Position numbers and translations under genes: made by a program
The notes under the pieces: model-generated
Told to the model about the DNA's origin: nothing
Databases searched by the model: none
Seen by the model: the letters and a program-made list of their open reading frames with translations, nothing else
Assembly: GCF_003112735.1 (NCBI RefSeq)
Contig: NZ_BFBR01000002.1
Coordinates: 62,001-126,000 of the forward strand
Direction of reading: 5' to 3'
Source: Candidatus Phycosocius bacilliformis
Lineage (GTDB): Bacteria > Pseudomonadota > Alphaproteobacteria > Caulobacterales > Aquidulcibacteraceae
DNA length: 64,000 bases
Shown here: in pieces, positions 7,219-18,063 of the stretch
How the letters are laid out: each line of letters starts with the position of its first letter
Position numbering within the stretch: position 1 is the first letter of the stretch

Positions 7219-8904
7219 ATGGCTACGGTAAAACCGATGCCCGTCACAGCTGGAGGCCACGCCGCGGCCTCAGCCAAGGGGCAGAATGAGAAATTGGTGA
7301 TTGCGGCGTCCTCGCTCGGTACCGTGTTTGAATGGTACGACTTTTACCTCTATGGCCTATTGGCCACCTATATCTCAGCCCAATTCTTCTCAGGCGTGAA
7401 TGAGACAACCGGTTTCATCTTTGCCTTGGGTGCCTTTGCTGCTGGCTTTGCCGTGCGGCCGTTCGGGGCGCTGGTCTTTGGTCGGATCGGCGACATGGTT
7501 GGTCGCAAGAACACCTTCCTTGTCACCATGGGCCTGATGGGGCTGGCCACATTCGGGGTCGGCCTGTTGCCATCCTATGCCACAATCGGTGTGATGGCCC
7601 CCATCATTCTGATTGGTCTGCGCCTTCTGCAAGGCCTGGCCATGGGTGGTGAATATGGTGGGGCTGCCACCTATGTGGCCGAGCACGCGCCGGAAGGTAA
7701 GCGTGGGCTTTATACCAGCTGGATCCAGACAACCGCGACTTTGGGGTTGTTTGCCGCTTTGCTGATCGTCATTGGCACCCGCACACTTCTGGGTGAAGAG
7801 GTGTTCAAGGCCTGGGGCTGGCGCGTGCCATTCCTCGTGTCGATGATCCTGTTGGCCGTATCCATGTGGATCCGCCTTCAGCTCAACGAAAGCCCAGTTT
7901 ATCAAAAGATGAAGGACGAGGGTAAGACGTCCAAAGCACCCCTGACCGAAGCCTTTGCCAAATGGGGCAATTTGAAGTGGGTCGTCATCGTCCTGTTCGG
8001 TGCGGTCGCTGGTCAAGCCGTGGTTTGGTACACTGGCCAATTCTATGCTCTGTTCTTCCTTGAGAAGATGCTCAAAGTCGACGGTGCCACGACCAATATC
8101 TTGATCGCTGTGGCCTTGATGATCGGTACACCTGGCTTTGTGTTCTTTGGTTGGCTGAGTGACAAGATTGGCCGCAAGCCTATCGTGTTGGCAGGCTGTG
8201 CTTTGGCAGCGCTGACCTATTTCCCCGCCTTCCATGCCCTTACCAAAGCAGCCAATCCTGCTTTGGCCCAAGCCCAAGCCAGCGCACCGGTGAGCGTGGT
8301 GGTCAATAATGCCGATTGCTCGGTCCAGTTCGACCCTGTTGGGAAGAATAAATTCGACACCAAGAGCTGCGACATCGCCAAATCCTATCTGGCCAAAAGC
8401 GGTGTCAGCTATACCAAGGTTGATGCACCCGTCGGCACCATTGCCGCCATCAAGATCGGTTCAGAGACCTTCGTCGCCCCTGATCCATCCACCGTGGCAG
8501 GTGCAGCAAAGAAGGCCGCCATCACCGCCTATCAGGACAGTGTGAAGGCTGCTTTGGCCAAGGCCGGCTATCCATCCAAGGCTGACCCCGCCGCGATGAA
8601 CCGGCCTTTGGTGATTGGCATCCTGGTCTATCTGGTGCTGTTGGTCACAGCAGTCTATGGCCCGATTGCCGCCCTCTTGGTGGAAATCTTCCCAAGCCGG
8701 ATCCGCTACACCTCAATGTCATTGCCCTACCATATTGGCAATGGCTGGTTTGGCGGCTTCCTGCCCACCACGGCCTTTGCCATGGTGGCAGCAACGGGGG
8801 ACATTTATTACGGCCTCTGGTACCCCGTCTTGATTGCAGGGCTGACCGCCATTGTTGGGCTGTTGTTCCTGCCTGAAACCTTCAAGCGCCGCCTTGATGC
8901 CTAA
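7219..8904 (+). CDS. MFS permease, metabolite:H+ symporter (MHS) type, with a periplasmic loop domain
   Basis: The ATG follows GGAGGGAG. The 561-residue protein has the MHS layout of twelve hydrophobic segments, the TM2-3 motif GRIGDMVGRKNTF and its repeat GWLSDKIGRKP. Unusually for the superfamily it carries a soluble insertion at about residues 344-461, between predicted TM9 and TM10. By topology this loop is periplasmic, and it contains two cysteines (in NADCSVQF and TKSCDIAK) that could form a disulphide. MHS permeases move small organic acids, betaines and dicarboxylates with protons (family knowledge). Its position in the porin operon opposite acs suggests acetate or a related acid; a hairpin terminator follows. 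The exact substrate is unknown. Confidence 0.88.
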   Translation: MATVKPMPVTAGGHAAASAKGQNEKLVIAASSLGTVFEWYDFYLYGLLATYISAQFFSGVNETTGFIFALGAFAAGFAVRPFGALVFGRIGDMVGRKNTFLVTMGLMGLATFGVGLLPSYATIGVMAPIILIGLRLLQGLAMGGEYGGAATYVAEHAPEGKRGLYTSWIQTTATLGLFAALLIVIGTRTLLGEEVFKAWGWRVPFLVSMILLAVSMWIRLQLNESPVYQKMKDEGKTSKAPLTEAFAKWGNLKWVVIVLFGAVAGQAVVWYTGQFYALFFLEKMLKVDGATTNILIAVALMIGTPGFVFFGWLSDKIGRKPIVLAGCALAALTYFPAFHALTKAANPALAQAQASAPVSVVVNNADCSVQFDPVGKNKFDTKSCDIAKSYLAKSGVSYTKVDAPVGTIAAIKIGSETFVAPDPSTVAGAAKKAAITAYQDSVKAALAKAGYPSKADPAAMNRPLVIGILVYLVLLVTAVYGPIAALLVEIFPSRIRYTSMSLPYHIGNGWFGGFLPTTAFAMVAATGDIYYGLWYPVLIAGLTAIVGLLFLPETFKRRLDA

Positions 8905-9227: not shown

Positions 9228-10130
9228 CTAGGTTCGTTCAAAAGCGCTCAGCGCCGCTTTGGCAATTTCTTCGCCCCATTCCTGCACGAAATGGCCGCCA
9301 TTGTGGATGACCAGCGGGGCTGGGCAGCCGCGAATGAGTTGGTACATATCTTCCATGACATCGAGCCCGAATACCGGATCGGCCGCACCCCAAGCCATAA
9401 AGCTTTTGCCGCGCCACTGCTCAGCCCAGAACGTTCGCGCAGCAAGTGAGACTTCCACCCCGTCCATGTGAGGTTCGGTCATCACACGTTTGGGAAACGC
9501 GCGGACTCCAGCCTTATAGGTTTGATCGGGGAAAGGGGCATCATAAGCGGCGATCTCATCGGGTGTGAGATGTGGGGCAGAACGCTTGATGAGTGCGCCA
9601 ATGTCGAGATCAGGCCGTGCTCCGGCATATGTGCGCCAGGCGAGAAAGCCCGCGCTAGGGGGGTGACCCGTGGCCAAAGTGGTGTTCATGATCAACAGAC
9701 GGTCGATGCGCTCCGCCATGCCTGCAGCAATTGGCAGGGTCAGGCCCAATAGCCCGCCCCAATCCTGAACCACGAGCGTGATCTGGCTTAGGTCCAGCCG
9801 CTCAATCAGCCGGATCAGGAATTGGCGATGAAAGTCAAAGCCATAAACCTCTTCATCCAGAGGTTTGTCTGAGCGGCCAAAGCCCAGCAGGTCTGGAGCC
9901 ACAACGCGCGCGCCGCTGGACAGAAACACCGGGATCATATGGCGGTAAAGATAGCTCCAGGTGGGTTGACCATGTAGGCACAAATAGACATGGGCCGCAT
10001 CTGCAGGGCCTTCATCAATCACAGCCGCGCGCAATCCGTCGTAGCCGGGCAAGTCGCTGATGTAATCGGGTTGATAGTCAAAGCCCGGCAAGCTGGCAAA
10101 GCGGGCATCGGGTGTTCGCAAGAAGTCCAC
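9228..10130 (-). CDS. Haloalkane dehalogenase-like alpha/beta hydrolase (HLD-I/DhmA type)
   Basis: This 300-residue alpha/beta hydrolase starts at a GTG preceded by GGGGGA. The nucleophile is Asp, D123 in VVQDWGG, with the following Trp that stabilises the halide in haloalkane dehalogenases. The oxyanion-hole region is HGQPTWSYLY. The likely acid is D251 (AADPVFG) and the base H280 (GGHFVQEWGE). These features favour dehalogenase over the Ser-type esterases and fit subfamily I (DhlA/DhmA). Such enzymes hydrolyse carbon-halogen bonds to an alcohol and halide in the cytoplasm. It lies 40 bases downstream of a four-helix membrane protein on the same strand, near an epoxide-hydrolase-like gene. 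An epoxide hydrolase of the same fold is the main alternative; the substrate is unknown. Confidence 0.82.
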   Translation of the reverse strand: MDFLRTPDARFASLPGFDYQPDYISDLPGYDGLRAAVIDEGPADAAHVYLCLHGQPTWSYLYRHMIPVFLSSGARVVAPDLLGFGRSDKPLDEEVYGFDFHRQFLIRLIERLDLSQITLVVQDWGGLLGLTLPIAAGMAERIDRLLIMNTTLATGHPPSAGFLAWRTYAGARPDLDIGALIKRSAPHLTPDEIAAYDAPFPDQTYKAGVRAFPKRVMTEPHMDGVEVSLAARTFWAEQWRGKSFMAWGAADPVFGLDVMEDMYQLIRGCPAPLVIHNGGHFVQEWGEEIAKAALSAFERT

Positions 10131-10170
10131 AATCAGTTCCCCCCTGGCTGAATGGTCGTTGGGTGGTGGC

Positions 10171-10590
10171 TCATCGTTTCAACACACCGCTGCCCACAAT
10201 ACCCACGCCAAACATGACCGCCAGGATCGTATTGGGGATGAGATTGAGGGCAAATCCCGTCGCCACCGAACATATGCCATCAATGACATACCAGCCCGTC
10301 AACCCAAACATCATCGCCAGCCACAGCGGGCGGGCTTCGCGCCCGTGAGCCAGGGCAAACCTGATCACGCCGTGCAATGTGATGGCCCAACCAATGGTGA
10401 TCGCCCCCATAAGGCCGAGGGCAAAACGCAGGACCGGATGAAACGCATCTGGACCTGCAGGACCCAGAATTGCCAGCAGCTGTTGGACAGGGCTGCTGGT
10501 GGGCTCAAAGGCACCAGCGCATAACAATGCGCCAAATCCAATGAGCGACAACGTAAAGGCATTAAAATAAAGCCGCCAGAATGGGTGCAT
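10171..10590 (-). CDS. Four-helix membrane protein, family unknown (paralogue 1)
   Basis: I do not recognise the family. The ATG at 10590 is preferred over the frame start at 10617 because GGAG lies 7 bases upstream. The 139-residue product is almost entirely hydrophobic with four predicted membrane segments, including FTLSLIGFGALLCAGAF and LMGAITIGWAITLHGV, a short positive loop (HGREARP), and the segment WYVIDGICSVATGFALNLIPN. The same layout, with matching W..(I)D..CS.A.G and N.I. positions, occurs in the protein at 12058-12504, so the two look like diverged paralogues. It is upstream of the dehalogenase and divergent from the XRE regulator at 10730, which may control it. Confidence 0.72.
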   Translation of the reverse strand: MHPFWRLYFNAFTLSLIGFGALLCAGAFEPTSSPVQQLLAILGPAGPDAFHPVLRFALGLMGAITIGWAITLHGVIRFALAHGREARPLWLAMMFGLTGWYVIDGICSVATGFALNLIPNTILAVMFGVGIVGSGVLKR

Positions 10591-10729
10591 GTGCGATCTC
10601 CAGAGATCACCTGCCAAAGGTCAGGGGTTTGCCGATCATGCGGTGTGACCTTGCACCCTGCAATTACCTCTGGCGTTATTGAATGGCCTACGAGGACATG
10701 CAAATGGGTCTGGCAGAGGAGATCCGATT

Positions 10730-11572
10730 ATGCCGGGGGATACCCAGTTGCAGATGGCTGATCACGATGGCGGCTTTGCCCGTCTATTGCGCGACTGGCG
10801 TCAAAGGCGACGTCTGTCACAACTTGATTTGGCGCTGATGTCGGGCGTGTCACAGCGCCATGTTAGCTTTCTGGAATCCCGGCGTGCCAATCCAAGCCGC
10901 AATATGATCTTGCAATTGAGCGAGACCTTGGATGTCCCTTTGCGTGATCGTAACGCATGGCTGACGGCGGCAGGCTTTGCCCCCATTTATAAGACACGTA
11001 CGCTGGATGATCCCCAAATGAGCCAGGTGATGGCGGCGATCCACATGATGCTGAAGGCGCATGAACCGTTTCCAGCCTTGGCCCTTGATCGGGCGTGGAA
11101 TGTGCGTTTGTCCAATCAGGCCTTTGATCGGCTGACAGCCATGCTGGGTGAGGATATTTGGGCGCGGGTGGGCGATGGCACGCGTAACCTCATGCGCTTA
11201 TTCTTCCATCCTGACGGCATTAAGCCCTATGTGACCAATTGGGCTGCGGTCGGCCCGCTGATCTGGCAGCGCGCCCAGCGCGAGGCCGAAGCCGTCGGCG
11301 AACCCGCGATGAAGGCGGTATTGGCGGAGTTGGCCCCCTATCAGGATAATCACATTCTGTGGTCAGCGGCAGAGACGGCTCTGGTTCCGGTGATGCCCTT
11401 TTCCATGGAAATGAATGGTCTTAAGATTTCCATGTTCGCTGTGGTTGCCACCTTTGGTACGGCTCAAGATATAACCGCTGATGAGCTGCGACTGGAGACC
11501 TTATTTCCCGCAGATGCGCAGACGGAGGCTTTATTTCGCGCTGCCGCTACCCCGCCAGATCCAAGTCGATAA
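10730..11572 (+). CDS. XRE-family regulator with MmyB-like ligand-binding domain
   Basis: The ATG at 10730 follows AGAGGAG and gives 280 residues. Residues about 17-72 form a helix-turn-helix of XRE type (RRRLSQLDLALMSGVSQRHV, SFLESRRANPSRNMI). The rest, from about PFPALALDRAWNVRLSN, matches the MmyB-like transcription regulator ligand-binding domain, a small-molecule sensing fold often tied to regulation of adjacent oxidoreductases and hydrolases (family knowledge). It is divergent from the membrane protein and dehalogenase unit and upstream of the epoxide-hydrolase-like gene, so it is well placed to control both arms. The inducer is unknown. Confidence 0.88.
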   Translation: MPGDTQLQMADHDGGFARLLRDWRQRRRLSQLDLALMSGVSQRHVSFLESRRANPSRNMILQLSETLDVPLRDRNAWLTAAGFAPIYKTRTLDDPQMSQVMAAIHMMLKAHEPFPALALDRAWNVRLSNQAFDRLTAMLGEDIWARVGDGTRNLMRLFFHPDGIKPYVTNWAAVGPLIWQRAQREAEAVGEPAMKAVLAELAPYQDNHILWSAAETALVPVMPFSMEMNGLKISMFAVVATFGTAQDITADELRLETLFPADAQTEALFRAAATPPDPSR

Positions 11573-11674
11573 CCTCATAGGTAATTGCATGTCGGCAATC
11601 GCCGGGCCAGCCTGAAGATCTGATCACACATCTGCGCATCGGGCCCGTTTTTGGGTATAGGAGGGAAAAAGACC

Positions 11675-12058
11675 ATGTCTGCCGACACGCCGCTGGCGAT
11701 TGCCCAGAGCTTTCTGAAGGCCATGGAGCCGCTTGATTATGACACAGCACTCAAGCTTGTCGCCCCTGATTGCACCTATATCAATCCCCCACCCATCGGT
11801 GCCGTAACAGGACCGGCTGGCATTCGTGCGGTGCTTGAGCCGTTTTTTGCCCCGACGCTTGAAAATGAGTTTCGGATTTTGCGCGCAGCGGTGAGTGGAG
11901 ATGTGGTGTGCCTTGAACGGCTCGACCGACACAAATTGGCGGACAAATGGGTGGAATTGCCCGTGACAGGCATATTCGAAATTCATGATGGTCTCATTAC
12001 ATATTGGCGAGACTATTTTGACGCGGCCACCATCTTGAACCAATGGCCGCGCGGGTGA
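11675..12058 (+). CDS. Limonene-1,2-epoxide hydrolase-like enzyme (SnoaL-like fold)
   Basis: The ATG at 11675 follows AGGAGGG and gives 127 residues, short for the family but complete. The catalytic set of limonene-epoxide hydrolase can be placed: Y35 and N37 in YINPP, R82 and D84 in LERLDRHK, and D113 in YWRDYFD, with spacings close to the Rhodococcus enzyme (Tyr53, Asn55, Arg99, Asp101, Asp132). The motif set separates it from generic SnoaL-like proteins, which usually lack it. Family members add water to epoxides in one step. The stop codon shares its last base with the start of the next gene (TGATG), implying translational coupling to the second four-helix protein. The substrate is not predictable. 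Confidence 0.82.
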   Translation: MSADTPLAIAQSFLKAMEPLDYDTALKLVAPDCTYINPPPIGAVTGPAGIRAVLEPFFAPTLENEFRILRAAVSGDVVCLERLDRHKLADKWVELPVTGIFEIHDGLITYWRDYFDAATILNQWPRG

Positions 12059-12504
12059 TGAAGGTCTCGCAGGCGGCCCAAAAGGCGTGGTTGAAAGTCA
12101 CTGCCATCATTGTCGGCAGCTTCGGGCCGGTCTTCTTTCTGGGCACGATGGCGGCCACGCGTGAGCCTGCGCGTTGGACGCTGGATGTGTTGAGTTGGCC
12201 ATTGGACGGGGCAACCCGGTTTTCAGATCCTGACACACAGTTCTTGGCAGCCCTGACAGGCGGCTTTCTGGCCGGCTGGGGGGTGATGATCTGGTGCTTG
12301 TCTACCTTTGTCCATGATCAGGCCCCTGAAGCGGTGCGCCGAACGGTTTTAATCAGCCTTCTGACGTGGTTCTGCTTTGATAGTGCGGGATCTATCGCTT
12401 CGGGAAATGGATCGAATGCGCTGATCAATATGATGGTCTTGATCTTGGCAGTCGGGCCGTTGTGGTGGCCTGCCACAGGCACCAAAGACCCCTCCGACAC
12501 CTAG
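12058..12504 (+). CDS. Four-helix membrane protein, family unknown (paralogue 2)
   Basis: I do not recognise the family. The ATG at 12058 is chosen because it overlaps the previous stop as TGATG; an in-frame ATG at 12043 would also be possible but has no ribosome binding site. The 148-residue protein has four predicted membrane segments (IIVGSFGPVFFLGTMA, TGGFLAGWGVMIWCLS, ISLLTWFCFDSAGSIAS, MMVLILAVGPLWW). Its layout and several positions (GW in helix 2, W..(F)D..GSIASG in helix 3) parallel the 139-residue protein at 10171-10590. Coupling to an epoxide-hydrolase-like gene suggests a shared membrane-linked role. It ends with a 4-base overlap with the convergent CoA-transferase gene. Confidence 0.72.
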   Translation: MKVSQAAQKAWLKVTAIIVGSFGPVFFLGTMAATREPARWTLDVLSWPLDGATRFSDPDTQFLAALTGGFLAGWGVMIWCLSTFVHDQAPEAVRRTVLISLLTWFCFDSAGSIASGNGSNALINMMVLILAVGPLWWPATGTKDPSDT

Positions 12505-13706
12505 AGCCGTTCTGCCACAACCGACTTGCCAATCAGGGCCTCAATCTCCTCTGGGCTGAAACCTGCATCGGCAAGCACTGCGCGCGCATCTTGGCCGGGG
12601 GCTGGGACCGCTGGTTTGGTGGTCTCGTCCAGTCCAGGAAAGCGGATCGGACCTGATGGCGAAGCCTTAAAGCCACCGGCTCCATCGGCAATCTGTGTTA
12701 TGCCACCTGCAGCCAGAAATTGCGGATCGGCGACCGTTTCAGCTGGACTTTGAACCGGGGCCCACACCAAATCATGGGCATCAAGGCTTTCGGCGATGTC
12801 TGCAAAGTCGCGAGAAGCAAACACCGCATCCATCAGCCCCACCAATTCAGCTCCATGTTCGCGCCGCGCTTTGGAGGTGGCAAAGCGGGGGTCGTTCTGG
12901 AGCCGCTCTAATCCAAGGGCGGCGCAAAAGCCCGGCCAATCGGCGGTGCCTTGTCGGGGTAGCAAGGTGAGCCAGCGTCCATCACGGCACTGGAAGAAAT
13001 TGGCCAGCGGGTTGACCGCTTCAAGACGGGGGCGGGTGGAGGCCAATCGCCCAAACCGCATCTGGATCGACATGTCCGAGCCCAATGTATAGGTGCCCGC
13101 CCGCAGAAGCGAGGCATCAACGTGTTGACCCTTACCGGTCAGCGAGCGGCTGTGCAGGGCTGCAAGAATGCCCGCGACTGTGGCCAGCGAACAAATATGG
13201 TCGCCCACCCCTGTGCGGATCGGGAAGGGGTCAACGCCTTTGGGTGCGGTCAATCGTGCCCACCCCGAGCGGGACCAAAACGCGGCAACATCAAAACCAG
13301 CCCGGTCGACATCTGGGCCTTCCAGCCCATAGCCGGTGACATTGGCATAGATCAAAGCGGGATTGACTGCCGAAAGCGCAGCATAATCAAGGCCTGCTCG
13401 GGTAAGCCCGCCGGGACGCACATTGGTGATAAAGATGTCGGCATCGGCCACCAGCCTGCGCACCAAATCGCGCCCTTCATCGCCGCCCGTGTCGATGATG
13501 ATGGATCGTTTGCCGCGATTATCGAGGTCAAAAACCGGGTTTTCGGCAATATCGGCCCCAATGGTGTCAAAGAAACGTCGGATTGGGTCGCCACCGGGGG
13601 GTTCGATCTTGATGACATCAGCGCCCCAGTCCGCCAACAAGCCGCCAGCCCCGGGGGCGGCAATATAGGTGGCATATTCAATGACTTTCAGACCCTTGAG
13701 CAGCAT
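12501..13706 (-). CDS. Family III (CaiB/BaiF) CoA-transferase
   Basis: This 401-residue protein of family III length starts MLLKGLKVIEYATYIAAPGA. It shows the N-terminal ADWGADVIKIEPPGGDP nucleotide-binding segment and the central GVGDHICSLATVAGILAAL motif, whose Asp is the expected acyl-acceptor. Members move CoA between organic acids (formate/oxalate, carnitine, bile acids, 2-methylacyl substrates) or act as racemases. The racemase subgroup needs an Asp-His pair and cannot be excluded. It is convergent with the preceding gene and alone on its strand. Together with the dehalogenase and epoxide-hydrolase-like genes it could take part in breakdown of an unusual substrate, but that link is positional only. 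Confidence 0.88.
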   Translation of the reverse strand: MLLKGLKVIEYATYIAAPGAGGLLADWGADVIKIEPPGGDPIRRFFDTIGADIAENPVFDLDNRGKRSIIIDTGGDEGRDLVRRLVADADIFITNVRPGGLTRAGLDYAALSAVNPALIYANVTGYGLEGPDVDRAGFDVAAFWSRSGWARLTAPKGVDPFPIRTGVGDHICSLATVAGILAALHSRSLTGKGQHVDASLLRAGTYTLGSDMSIQMRFGRLASTRPRLEAVNPLANFFQCRDGRWLTLLPRQGTADWPGFCAALGLERLQNDPRFATSKARREHGAELVGLMDAVFASRDFADIAESLDAHDLVWAPVQSPAETVADPQFLAAGGITQIADGAGGFKASPSGPIRFPGLDETTKPAVPAPGQDARAVLADAGFSPEEIEALIGKSVVAERL

Positions 13707-13873: not shown

Positions 13874-15022
13874 ATGGGCGTTTCCACGCTGCGCGTAAAC
13901 TTAAGTGAAGCAGACATTCGATCATTGATCAAAGGCGAGACCGACGAAGATCGGGCGCTGGCCTGTTATCGTCTTTGCCGTCGCATCGATACGGTTACAT
14001 TGAGCGACGAAGAACGCGCCTATGCCGAGCAAATTCTGAAGATCGTGATTGCAGGGGCGGCCGAGCGTGTGCGTCGTGCGCTGGCGGTGACGCTGAAGGC
14101 CTCGCCTAATCTTCCCGCCGAAATTGCCACCAAACTTGCCCGTGACATTGATTCCATTGCTGTTCCAATTCTGGAAAGCTCGCCTGTCTTGAGTGATGAG
14201 GATCTGGTTGAGATTTTGGAGTCAGCTGAACCTGCCCGCCAATATGCGATTGCCCGGCGTGAAACGCTTTCTGAAGTGGTGACAACAGCCTTGTGCACCC
14301 ACGGGGTGGATGGGGCCATTATCGAAGCCCTGCGCAATGATGGCGCGCAGTTCAATGATGTGGGTATGACACGTGCACTTGATCGCTTTCCAAGCGTGCG
14401 TGAATTGCAAGAAGCCATGGTGGATCGGCCGATCCTGCCGCTTTTGGTCTCTGAAAAACTTGCAGCTAGGCTTACCGGTGAATTGTTTGACCGTCTGGTC
14501 GAAAAACACGCGATGCCGCCACAAATGGCGATTGAGTTGGCAACCCAAACCCGCGAGCGGGCAGGGGTGGATTTGGTCGCCCAAGCCGGTCTACAGGCCG
14601 ATATGAAGCGGTATGTGCAGCAATTGCACCTGAATGGTCGCTTGACGCCCAGCTTCGTGCTGCGGGCCTTGTGTCAGGGTGAAGTACGTCTGGTTGAACA
14701 TGCCTTTGCCGAATTGGCTGGCATTGCCCACAATAAGGCATGGCTTCTCGTTCATGATGGCGGCACCATGGGACTACGCGCAATTTTTGAGCGCGCCAAT
14801 ATGCCGCCGAGCCTGTATCCTGCCTTCCGGGCAGCGATTGAAGTGCTGCATGAGACTGAGTTTGACGGCACCGCTGATGATCGCATGCGGTTCCGCAAGC
14901 GCATGATTGAACGTGTCCTGACCCGGTTCCAGTCCATCCCTGAAGATGATTTGAGCTATCTGCTTGAGAAGCTCGATTATGTGCGTGAGGAGACGGATGA
15001 TCGCCGTCGTGCGGTCGGCTAG
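13874..15022 (+). CDS. DUF2336 domain protein 1
   Basis: This 382-residue helical protein starts at an ATG following AGGAG. It resembles the alphaproteobacterial DUF2336 family: repeated helical, HEAT-like segments such as AERVRRALAVTLKASPNLPAEIATKLARD and VPILESSPVLSDEDLVEILE, no signal peptide and no membrane segment, so it should be cytoplasmic. No catalytic residues can be named. A second family member lies 2 kb away at 16869-17957, with the shared pattern (I/V)PIL..(S/C)P(V/I)L.D(E/D).LVE. A strong hairpin follows the stop. The family has no established function known to me; its frequent company with signalling genes is suggestive, and here a lone Hpt protein is the next gene. Confidence 0.8.
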   Translation: MGVSTLRVNLSEADIRSLIKGETDEDRALACYRLCRRIDTVTLSDEERAYAEQILKIVIAGAAERVRRALAVTLKASPNLPAEIATKLARDIDSIAVPILESSPVLSDEDLVEILESAEPARQYAIARRETLSEVVTTALCTHGVDGAIIEALRNDGAQFNDVGMTRALDRFPSVRELQEAMVDRPILPLLVSEKLAARLTGELFDRLVEKHAMPPQMAIELATQTRERAGVDLVAQAGLQADMKRYVQQLHLNGRLTPSFVLRALCQGEVRLVEHAFAELAGIAHNKAWLLVHDGGTMGLRAIFERANMPPSLYPAFRAAIEVLHETEFDGTADDRMRFRKRMIERVLTRFQSIPEDDLSYLLEKLDYVREETDDRRRAVG

Positions 15023-16868: not shown

Positions 16869-17957
16869 TTAGTTGGACATGCCTTTGGCAAATGCTGTGC
16901 GGGCCGCATTAGGCGAGCAGCGCATCCAGACCAGCGCGACGGTACGATCATCGCCAATGGTCCATGGAATCGCACGCGTCTCAAGGGTTTCATAAATCGT
17001 GCGCACGATCGAGGAATCGAAATTGGCTGCCCGTGCCGCCAGTGCGATGCTTTCAGTGTCAGCATTGGCAAGTTTGCGACTGACCCCGGCGGTTGGCAAT
17101 TCCAGAATATAGGCAAGACCACGCACGAATTGATCGCGCTCGCCCCGCATCAGAGCGGCAACCAAAAAGCCCGGTGTCGGCTTGATATCGAGCTTGCGGG
17201 CCGAGGTGCGTACCTGGTCGACGACACGGTCAGGCAATGGGTGTTTAAAGGCGGTCTTAGCGGCCGAACTGGCTGCTTCGGCGCTGGTATCTGCAACGAT
17301 GGTGACCAGCCTGTCAGCAATTTTTGGCGATACGCGACTGACGATGATATCGCGAGCTTCCGCCCCGGCCAGCGCGAAGGCAGCAGCAACCAAACTGGGC
17401 GGTAGGTCATGGCGCTGAACCAGCAAATTGAGCGATTCTGGCATGTCTGAGAGTGAGTTCATCGCCCGTTCAAAGTCAGCAGATGTGATCCGTGCTGTGA
17501 CATTGGCAGCCAAAGTGGCCAGTACCTTTTTGTCATCGGTCTCAATCAGGCTGTGCGATACCCGCTCGCCGATGCAAGGCCGTTCAGCAATGGCCTGACG
17601 ATGATCATAGCCACACGCTTGCACCACCTCGACCAAGATATCGTCATTGAGGATGGGGCAAAAACTCAGGATCGGCTGCGCAATGTCAAATGAATCAAGC
17701 GCTAGCTCGCGCACCAGATCGACCGGTGCCCAATCGGCCATGGCCAAGGTCGCCGACAATTTAAGCCGTACTTCCTGGCGGGCAAACTGATAGAGCTTGA
17801 CCAATATGTCTGAGAACAGCGTGCGCTCCATTAATGAAGCGGCTTCACCATTATCAAGAAATTGTTCCGCCGTCGCTGCAACCAAGGCCTCGCGCGCCTC
17901 GCGAGAGTCATTTTCTGCCAATTTAATCAGCGGATGAGGGGCGTTTGTATGTGACAT
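16869..17957 (-). CDS. DUF2336 domain protein 2
   Basis: The frame runs from 17990, but MSHTNAPHP at 17957 is the more likely start, giving 362 residues. The protein is helical and soluble, with the DUF2336 layout: an early helical region (LMERTLFSDILVKLYQFARQ), the shared pattern QPILSFCPILNDDILVEVV and a long tail with QRHDLPPSLVAAAFA. It resembles the product at 13874-15022 but is clearly diverged from it. It is followed by nadK and is divergent from the class II aldolase gene, across a region rich in GTTACC/GGTAAC elements. Function unknown. Confidence 0.78.
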   Translation of the reverse strand: MSHTNAPHPLIKLAENDSREAREALVAATAEQFLDNGEAASLMERTLFSDILVKLYQFARQEVRLKLSATLAMADWAPVDLVRELALDSFDIAQPILSFCPILNDDILVEVVQACGYDHRQAIAERPCIGERVSHSLIETDDKKVLATLAANVTARITSADFERAMNSLSDMPESLNLLVQRHDLPPSLVAAAFALAGAEARDIIVSRVSPKIADRLVTIVADTSAEAASSAAKTAFKHPLPDRVVDQVRTSARKLDIKPTPGFLVAALMRGERDQFVRGLAYILELPTAGVSRKLANADTESIALAARAANFDSSIVRTIYETLETRAIPWTIGDDRTVALVWMRCSPNAARTAFAKGMSN

Positions 17958-17979
17958 CGCCCCAAGGGTTAACGTTATC

Positions 17980-18063
17980 ATCGTTACCAACCCGTAAACG
18001 ACATGATTAAAAAGCTGCGGTTACGTTGGGTAACTTGATTATCGCTCACAATGGGGTAACGAT
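17980..18063. promoter_or_regulatory. Inverted repeats ATCGTTACC...GGTAACGAT around a central dyad
   Basis: ATCGTTACC at 17980-17988 and its exact reverse complement GGTAACGAT at 18055-18063 flank the dyad GTTAC-GTTGG-GTAAC at 18020-18034. All lie in the 130-base divergent region between the DUF2336-nadK unit and the aldolase gene. Three related sites suggest a regulator that binds GTTACC-type half-sites; the protein is unknown. Confidence 0.45.

Follow-up and report, generated by a model that had tools for sequence, protein, structure and literature searches.

Regulators of the MltR/MmyB family combine an XRE-type helix-turn-helix with a PAS-like ligand domain. MltR (PDB 3pxp) binds myristic acid and has been modelled on a palindromic target, MmyB has been suggested to recognise pseudo-palindromic 'B-boxes', and family members have upstream regions in common with their putative targets; in that family, the neighbouring genes are mainly those for short- or medium-chain (SDR/MDR) dehydrogenases or antibiotics (Xu et al. 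2012; PMC3406030). Here we describe a locus in a 64,000-nucleotide stretch of Candidatus Phycosocius bacilliformis (contig NZ_BFBR01000002.1, positions 62,001 to 126,000; called the window, whose own numbering is used below) in which a regulator of the same architecture (MLTR) is accompanied instead by two unnamed four-helix membrane proteins (TM4a and TM4b) and a limonene-1,2-epoxide-hydrolase-like enzyme (LEH). We propose, with a probability of about 0.8, that this locus is the home of a previously undescribed regulon in which MLTR would act through a 21-bp dyad on TM4 and LEH targets in cis and in trans.

The other components also have described relatives. LEH belongs to the fold family of the solved limonene-1,2-epoxide hydrolases (5aih/5aii, 2bng and 1nww) and has the same five active-site positions; it differs in scoring at most 60.5 bits to them and in being encoded with a membrane protein under a predicted MLTR operator. 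A haloalkane-dehalogenase-like enzyme at the locus keeps the catalytic and halide residues of 2xt0 and DhlA (1b6g) and differs from both in its regulatory linkage to TM4a/MLTR. In Bacteroidota, the same TM4 family stands beside a regulator gene in TetR-TM4 units (L146, L162 and L264-L266), but there TetR lies upstream on the same strand and the MLTR operator was found before 0 of 25 TetR-linked TM4 genes in the matrix scan described below. The window dyad and the suggested MmyB B-boxes are alike in description, as palindrome-like sites. A literature search that included LEH-XRE links, the MLTR domain and the MmyB B-boxes, with most subscription papers outside its scope, found no description of the operator or regulon, and neither AGGTAA nor TTACCT was matched in the accessible text of PMC12565409.

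The dyad was recognised in the gap between TM4a (10171..10590, minus strand; 139 aa counted from its ATG) and MLTR (10730..11572, plus strand). Alignment of this gap gave one block that is strongly conserved in 8/8 sequences and holds the 21-bp dyad; in the window the dyad reads CAATTACCTCTGGCGTTATTG (operator O1, 10661..10681), upstream of TM4a. A second copy, CGATAACCTCATAGGTAATTG (operator O2, 11567..11587), overlaps the MLTR stop codon upstream of LEH (11675..12058, plus strand) and TM4b (12043..12504, plus strand). In the 3.3-Mb genome from which the window comes, CAATNACNTNNNANGTNATTG has three matches with no more than one mismatch: these two and a site at C1:406823-406843, which lies about 50 bp upstream of an unlinked third TM4 gene at 406894. 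The three sites precede TM4a/MLTR, LEH-TM4b and the unlinked TM4. All seven other genus blocks scanned have O2 in the equivalent position; in a metagenome-assembled genome, PA4, it is weaker. Sites with at most one mismatch occur in eight of nine genus genomes; the exception (G013) has no TM4, MLTR or LEH match.

A TM4 profile, PF17765, PF07858 and NF002043 were then run against 150 genomes of the order. The operator consensus outside the genus is CAATTACCTCnGAGGTAATTG. With up to two mismatches, CAATTACCTNNNAGGTAATTG gave 27 sites in 26 of the 150 genomes (the reversed control gave one); 24 of them have an MLTR, TM4 or LEH match no more than 1 kb away, typically a TM4 match at 41-61 bp, and a site in G048 lies 70 bp before an unlinked LEH. 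Genomes with a site number 23/58 where MLTR is present and 3/92 among the others (Fisher p 1.2e-8, uncorrected for kinship). The exact pattern was found at 0 sites in viral contigs.

The operator follows one MLTR subfamily. For 30 loci drawn from 66 MLTRs, whole loci were scanned against a mononucleotide-shuffle null. The 19 that reach 339 bits or more against a model of the window subfamily carry the operator in 19/19 cases (four of these sites also belonged to the training set of the matrix described next), and the other 11, which score at most 55 bits, in 0/11. Ten loci of the window subfamily without TM4 were inspected. In four (L068, L069, L072 and L082) the gene opposite MLTR, on the far side of the operator, encodes a different small membrane protein without a name, and in one (L064) a SnoaL-like protein; in the remaining five no clear small partner was seen.

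To score individual promoters we used an operator matrix whose training set, taken from outside the genus, was 31 TM4 sites linked to MLTR; dinucleotide shuffles served as the null. Sites were found before 16 of 31 LEH regions (0.15 expected): seven in the genus, two at other MLTR-linked LEHs (G061 and G017) and seven at LEHs unlinked to MLTR (L230, L228, L229, L231, L215, L227 and L221). They were also found before 13 of 16 TM4 regions of the order whose locus has no MLTR. A scan of genome contigs with TM4b gave 221 relatives, of which the best 80 were analysed (many of them 65-74% identical to the window protein); in TM4 regions of these 80 contigs with neither MLTR nor TetR, a site is present in 16/35. 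Counted by genome, with partial duplicates (G000, G067, G077 and G085) included on both sides of the count, sites precede 46/57 TM4 rows and 16/21 LEH rows where MLTR is present, and 0/5 TM4 and 0/9 LEH rows where it is absent. On a tree of 37 LEH rows, the operator label needs four changes, against a mean of 12 for shuffled labels; the tree is a quick one, with 19 of 34 inner branches weakly supported. Seven operator-free LEHs fall on its operator-rich side: L214, L234 and L241, from genomes without an over-cut-off MLTR; L031, L232 and L233, each downstream of a membrane gene that has the operator; and L196, with no MLTR found on the contig.

These counts bear on an alternative in which TM4 would be the sole true target, with LEH and the dehalogenase as passengers on its promoter. 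In its favour, many genomes from several phyla have TM4 beside MLTR or TetR but no LEH, and TetR-TM4 pairs occur on plasmids. Against it, LEH has an operator of its own at the seven MLTR-unlinked places listed above, and none of the nine LEH rows from MLTR-free genomes has one. We consider this explanation unlikely.

The position of the operator suggests a promoter element. A nAnnnT motif follows the dyad at a preferred distance: among 76 TM4 sites, it stands at offset 20 in 28 cases and at offset 21 in 21 (mean per offset 3.1); among 22 LEH sites, 13 at offset 20 (mean 1.1); and among 62 MLTR sites, 30 at offset 20 and 12 at offset 19 (mean 2.5). The dyad ends in TTG at the place expected for a -35 element, with a spacer of about 17 bp to nAnnnT, so the operator would cover the -35 region, and for divergent genes would do so on both sides. 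In the window, a -10-like match is found on the TM4a and LEH sides. Because the operator centre lies near -43 and the -35 hexamers are poor beyond the TTG, we lean slightly towards MLTR being an activator rather than a repressor.

Gene neighbourhood gives the second line of evidence. Models of MLTR, LEH, TetR, the small membrane family SM and the dehalogenase used in locus scans were built from the loci of this analysis. All six genes named in the first-pass annotation are present in the window, and the recurrence of the set in the genus goes beyond chance: MLTR, LEH and at least one TM4 occur together in seven of the eight genus genomes of the 150-genome sample (in G058 as a TM4 remnant), the eighth being the 2.5-Mb G013. 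Across the sample, 38 of 57 TM4 matches have an over-cut-off MLTR at a distance of up to 2 kb (31 divergent and 7 tandem), and 33 of 66 over-cut-off MLTRs have a TM4 nearby. LEH is within 2 kb of MLTR in 12 of 78 cases, seven in the genus and five outside it (G017, G026, G036, G041 and G061). Outside the genus the gene order varies: TM4|MLTR-LEH in G061, MLTR|TM4-LEH in G036 and G041, MLTR|SM-LEH in G026 and MLTR-LEH in G017. The best 80 of the 221 TM4b contigs (five of them the genus block) contain MLTR in 22, TetR in 25, LEH in 11, SM in 13 and the dehalogenase in 6, and TM4 loci from other genomes of the class have MLTR inside their 1.5-kb flanks in 5/17. This co-location in changing order and orientation, together with an operator in common even when the genes are unlinked, supports the prediction that regulator, four-helix family and LEH form a functional set, as the first-pass annotation of the window had suggested. 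That annotation had also read the symmetrical layout, with a hydrolase and a four-helix protein on each side of the regulator, as a designed unit. This does not survive comparison within the genus: the blocks of G003 and G058 are without TM4b, and in G058 (L244, 4604-4801) only the rear part of TM4a is left, the adjoining operator being intact.

A number of observations weigh against the proposed regulon. In the genome of the window, allowing two mismatches adds six further sites (one for the reversed pattern), and five extra one-mismatch or exact sites occur in the genus mates G058, G067, G077 and G387. Three of the 27 pattern sites (G004, G035 and G045) have no MLTR, TM4 or LEH match within 1 kb. 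Kinship among the genomes inflates all p-values. The site is absent from 19 of the 35 best-80-contig TM4 regions without MLTR and TetR. In MLTR-containing genomes, 11/57 TM4 rows and 5/21 LEH rows have no site; most of these TM4 rows are second genes behind an operator (for example, the genus TM4b behind O2) or partial duplicates, and the site-free LEHs of G026, G036 and G041 stand behind an operator-led membrane gene. A TM4 in an acyl-CoA-dehydrogenase operon of G026 is a true exception, and two distant LEHs (G028 and G080) are clear ones. The threshold used for the counts by genome is low (4.2 bits), and the unlinked TM4 sites of G043 and G077 (4.6 bits) and G037 (5.0 bits) are close to it. 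On the MLTR side of the window operator, the -10 is not matched. In Bacteroidota, TM4 pairs with TetR rather than MLTR, and its function would therefore be independent of MLTR. Finally, the biochemical role of the set, including TM4 function and the sensed compound, is something that we infer.

For the proposed regulon, the following scheme would fit these data. One MmyB-like subfamily would bind the 21-bp dyad, presumably as a dimer, and the dyad would form the upstream part of the target promoters. The targets would be four-helix membrane proteins of the TM4 family and one clade of LEHs, in cis or in trans; in the window genus, the dehalogenase may have joined the set behind TM4a. By analogy with MltR, MLTR might respond to a lipophilic, fatty-acid-like compound entering or forming in the membrane. 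LEH could open an epoxide of the sensed compound or of a by-product, and TM4, via conserved in-membrane positions (W-D-S...N-N), could handle the same compound or its effect. Such a lipophile response is the likeliest role for the set, held tentatively and at odds clearly short of even. It is possible, at a little under an even chance, that TM4-type proteins are effectors of a widespread and so far unrecognised membrane-stress or lipophile response, controlled by MLTR and a conserved operator in Proteobacteria and by TetR in Bacteroidota; the MLTR subfamily could then swap TM4, next to an unchanged operator, for at least two other unnamed small membrane families, with LEH supplying the chemistry.

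A predicted operator and regulon for an MmyB-like subfamily would make its target genes readable from sequence and give unlinked, uncharacterised genes a testable common control. It would also provide a first handle on an unnamed small membrane-protein family of several phyla and allow the direct question of which compound switches it.

A signalling system has also to be considered, in which LEH would make or destroy a lipophilic signal, MLTR would sense it and TM4 would serve as membrane receptor or exporter. Furan-type signal molecules activate MmyB, and A-factor induces a member of the family (PMC10717218 and PMC3406030). Among the neighbours that recur, no family resembling a synthase was conspicuous, and many MLTR-TM4 genomes are without LEH; we hold this to be an improbable account of the locus. 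The first-pass annotation had suggested that halogenated or epoxide compounds are consumed or detoxified; such a pathway, in which dehalogenase, LEH and CoA-transferase would act in sequence, is quite improbable: both hydrolases have full sets of catalytic residues and PA4 (L140) contains dehalogenase, TM4a, MLTR, LEH and TM4b, all five in window order, but dehalogenase linkage was found only in the genus and PA4, the CoA-transferase is convergent, and outside the genus operator sites lie at TM4, MLTR and LEH genes without a linked dehalogenase.

The dehalogenase (9228..10130, minus strand; 300 aa, GTG start) is an HLD-I-type haloalkane-dehalogenase-like enzyme. It matches NF002043 at 322.5 bits (cut-off 265) and its whole length can be aligned with haloalkane dehalogenases of known structure (389 bits to 2xt0 and 345 to 1b6g). 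As described in the first-pass annotation for three of them, residues D123, W124, W165, D251 and H280 match those of the solved enzymes; we take D123, H280 and D251 to be the nucleophile, base and acid and W124 and W165 the two halide tryptophans. Since it is on the same strand, 40 bp behind TM4a, it is probably co-transcribed with it. A spacing of 31-47 bp from TM4a is found in all seven block-bearing genomes of the 150-genome sample, and the linkage recurs in genus contig L138 and in PA4. Over-cut-off relatives (NF002043) occur in 89/150 genomes; by coordinates, none of the other over-cut-off rows listed is near block genes, and for 13 of these checked by script the nearest lies 48 kb away. 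The dehalogenase is thus, with narrow support, a genus-level accessory, and, PA4 apart, it did not follow the four-helix family, MLTR and LEH in their co-occurrence beyond the genus. The family III CoA-transferase (12501..13706, minus strand), which the first-pass annotation had listed after the set, was rejected as a member: it is convergent with TM4b, and of the loci examined only those of the genus have it.

LEH (127 aa, ATG start) scores 134.7 bits with PF07858 (cut-off 24), and its residues Y35, N37, R82, D84 and D113, noted in the first pass, each align with an identical residue of 5aih. We take this Tyr-Asn-Arg-Asp-Asp set to be the active-site positions of the family. By family and residues, LEH is a predicted epoxide hydrolase. 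The TM4b start (12043 or 12058) overlaps the LEH stop codon, so translational coupling of the two is likely. MLTR (280 aa) starts at ATG 10730 (the domain scan was run from 10727) and matches PF01381, the XRE-type helix-turn-helix, at its N-terminus (42.9 bits, cut-off 23) and the PF17765 ligand-binding domain at its C-terminus (83.7 bits, cut-off 26.3). For TM4a, the ATG at 10590 is more likely to be the start than the TTG at 10617 of the open reading frame list.

The two four-helix proteins had been called related. Both align within a 30-member family set, and the relationship is distant: with TM4b as the only query sequence, TM4a is recovered at E 0.003, and in the family alignment the two are 17% identical. 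The family occurs in several phyla and carries no name. Neither TM4a nor TM4b has a Pfam or NCBIfam match, and the 30 members give only weak, scattered matches below cut-off (best E 0.02). A PDB sequence search with TM4 gave no match at E up to 1; with the TM4a fold, Foldseek gave none at E <=0.001 and VIA-align mostly generic helical bundles. The predicted structure of TM4a has four long helices and one short (pLDDT 91). Six residues are invariant in the 30 members: G71, W109, D113, S117, N125 and N129 (TM4a numbering from TTG 10617). In the model, D113/S117 and N125/N129 are pairs spaced by one turn, on the last two helices and to either side of the turn that connects these, which suggests that they form a polar site inside the membrane. 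Profile comparison did not support a shared ancestry of the three families of small membrane proteins: the probability was 0.1 for TM4 against SM and 5 for TM4 against the LADA..SG..G family.

Two more small membrane-protein-like families without a Pfam name (A4 with 11 rows and A5 with 4) accompany the regulator or adjoin TM4 (L247, L153 and L185; L068, L069, L072 and L082). A TetR gene precedes TM4, annotated 'hypothetical protein', on 3/3 plasmid records with a TM4b match; these are Bacteroidota plasmids (L264, L265 and L266) with differing neighbours, which suggests a portable pair. The unlinked TM4 genes of the window genome, G144 and G058 (L254 4895-5320, L042 7005-7460 and L054 318-749) adjoin a lepA-like (EF4) gene, a call based on the protein start and, for L054, also on a shared cluster. 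In G085, the TM4 frame (L010 1471-1950) has an internal stop, which may reflect a broken gene or a sequence error. Operator-like sites also occur in genomes without an over-cut-off MLTR (G004:C5:115837, G035:C108:10919 and G045:C1:2894650); those of G035 and G045, which belong to one genus, are near a gene whose start resembles an HExxH membrane protease.

Among the neighbours of the block, a major facilitator superfamily (MFS) symporter (7219-8904, plus strand) has family matches in separate stretches around residues 350-470, which suggests a soluble insert. It is preceded by a DcaP-like porin, and in L035 and L037, two loci of the genus, both genes adjoin the block. Two neighbouring DUF2336 proteins are encoded at 13874-15022 (plus strand) and 16869-17990 (minus strand); with the NCBIfam SpbR model (cut-off 400), the first scores 458 bits, over the cut-off, and the second 112 bits, below it.

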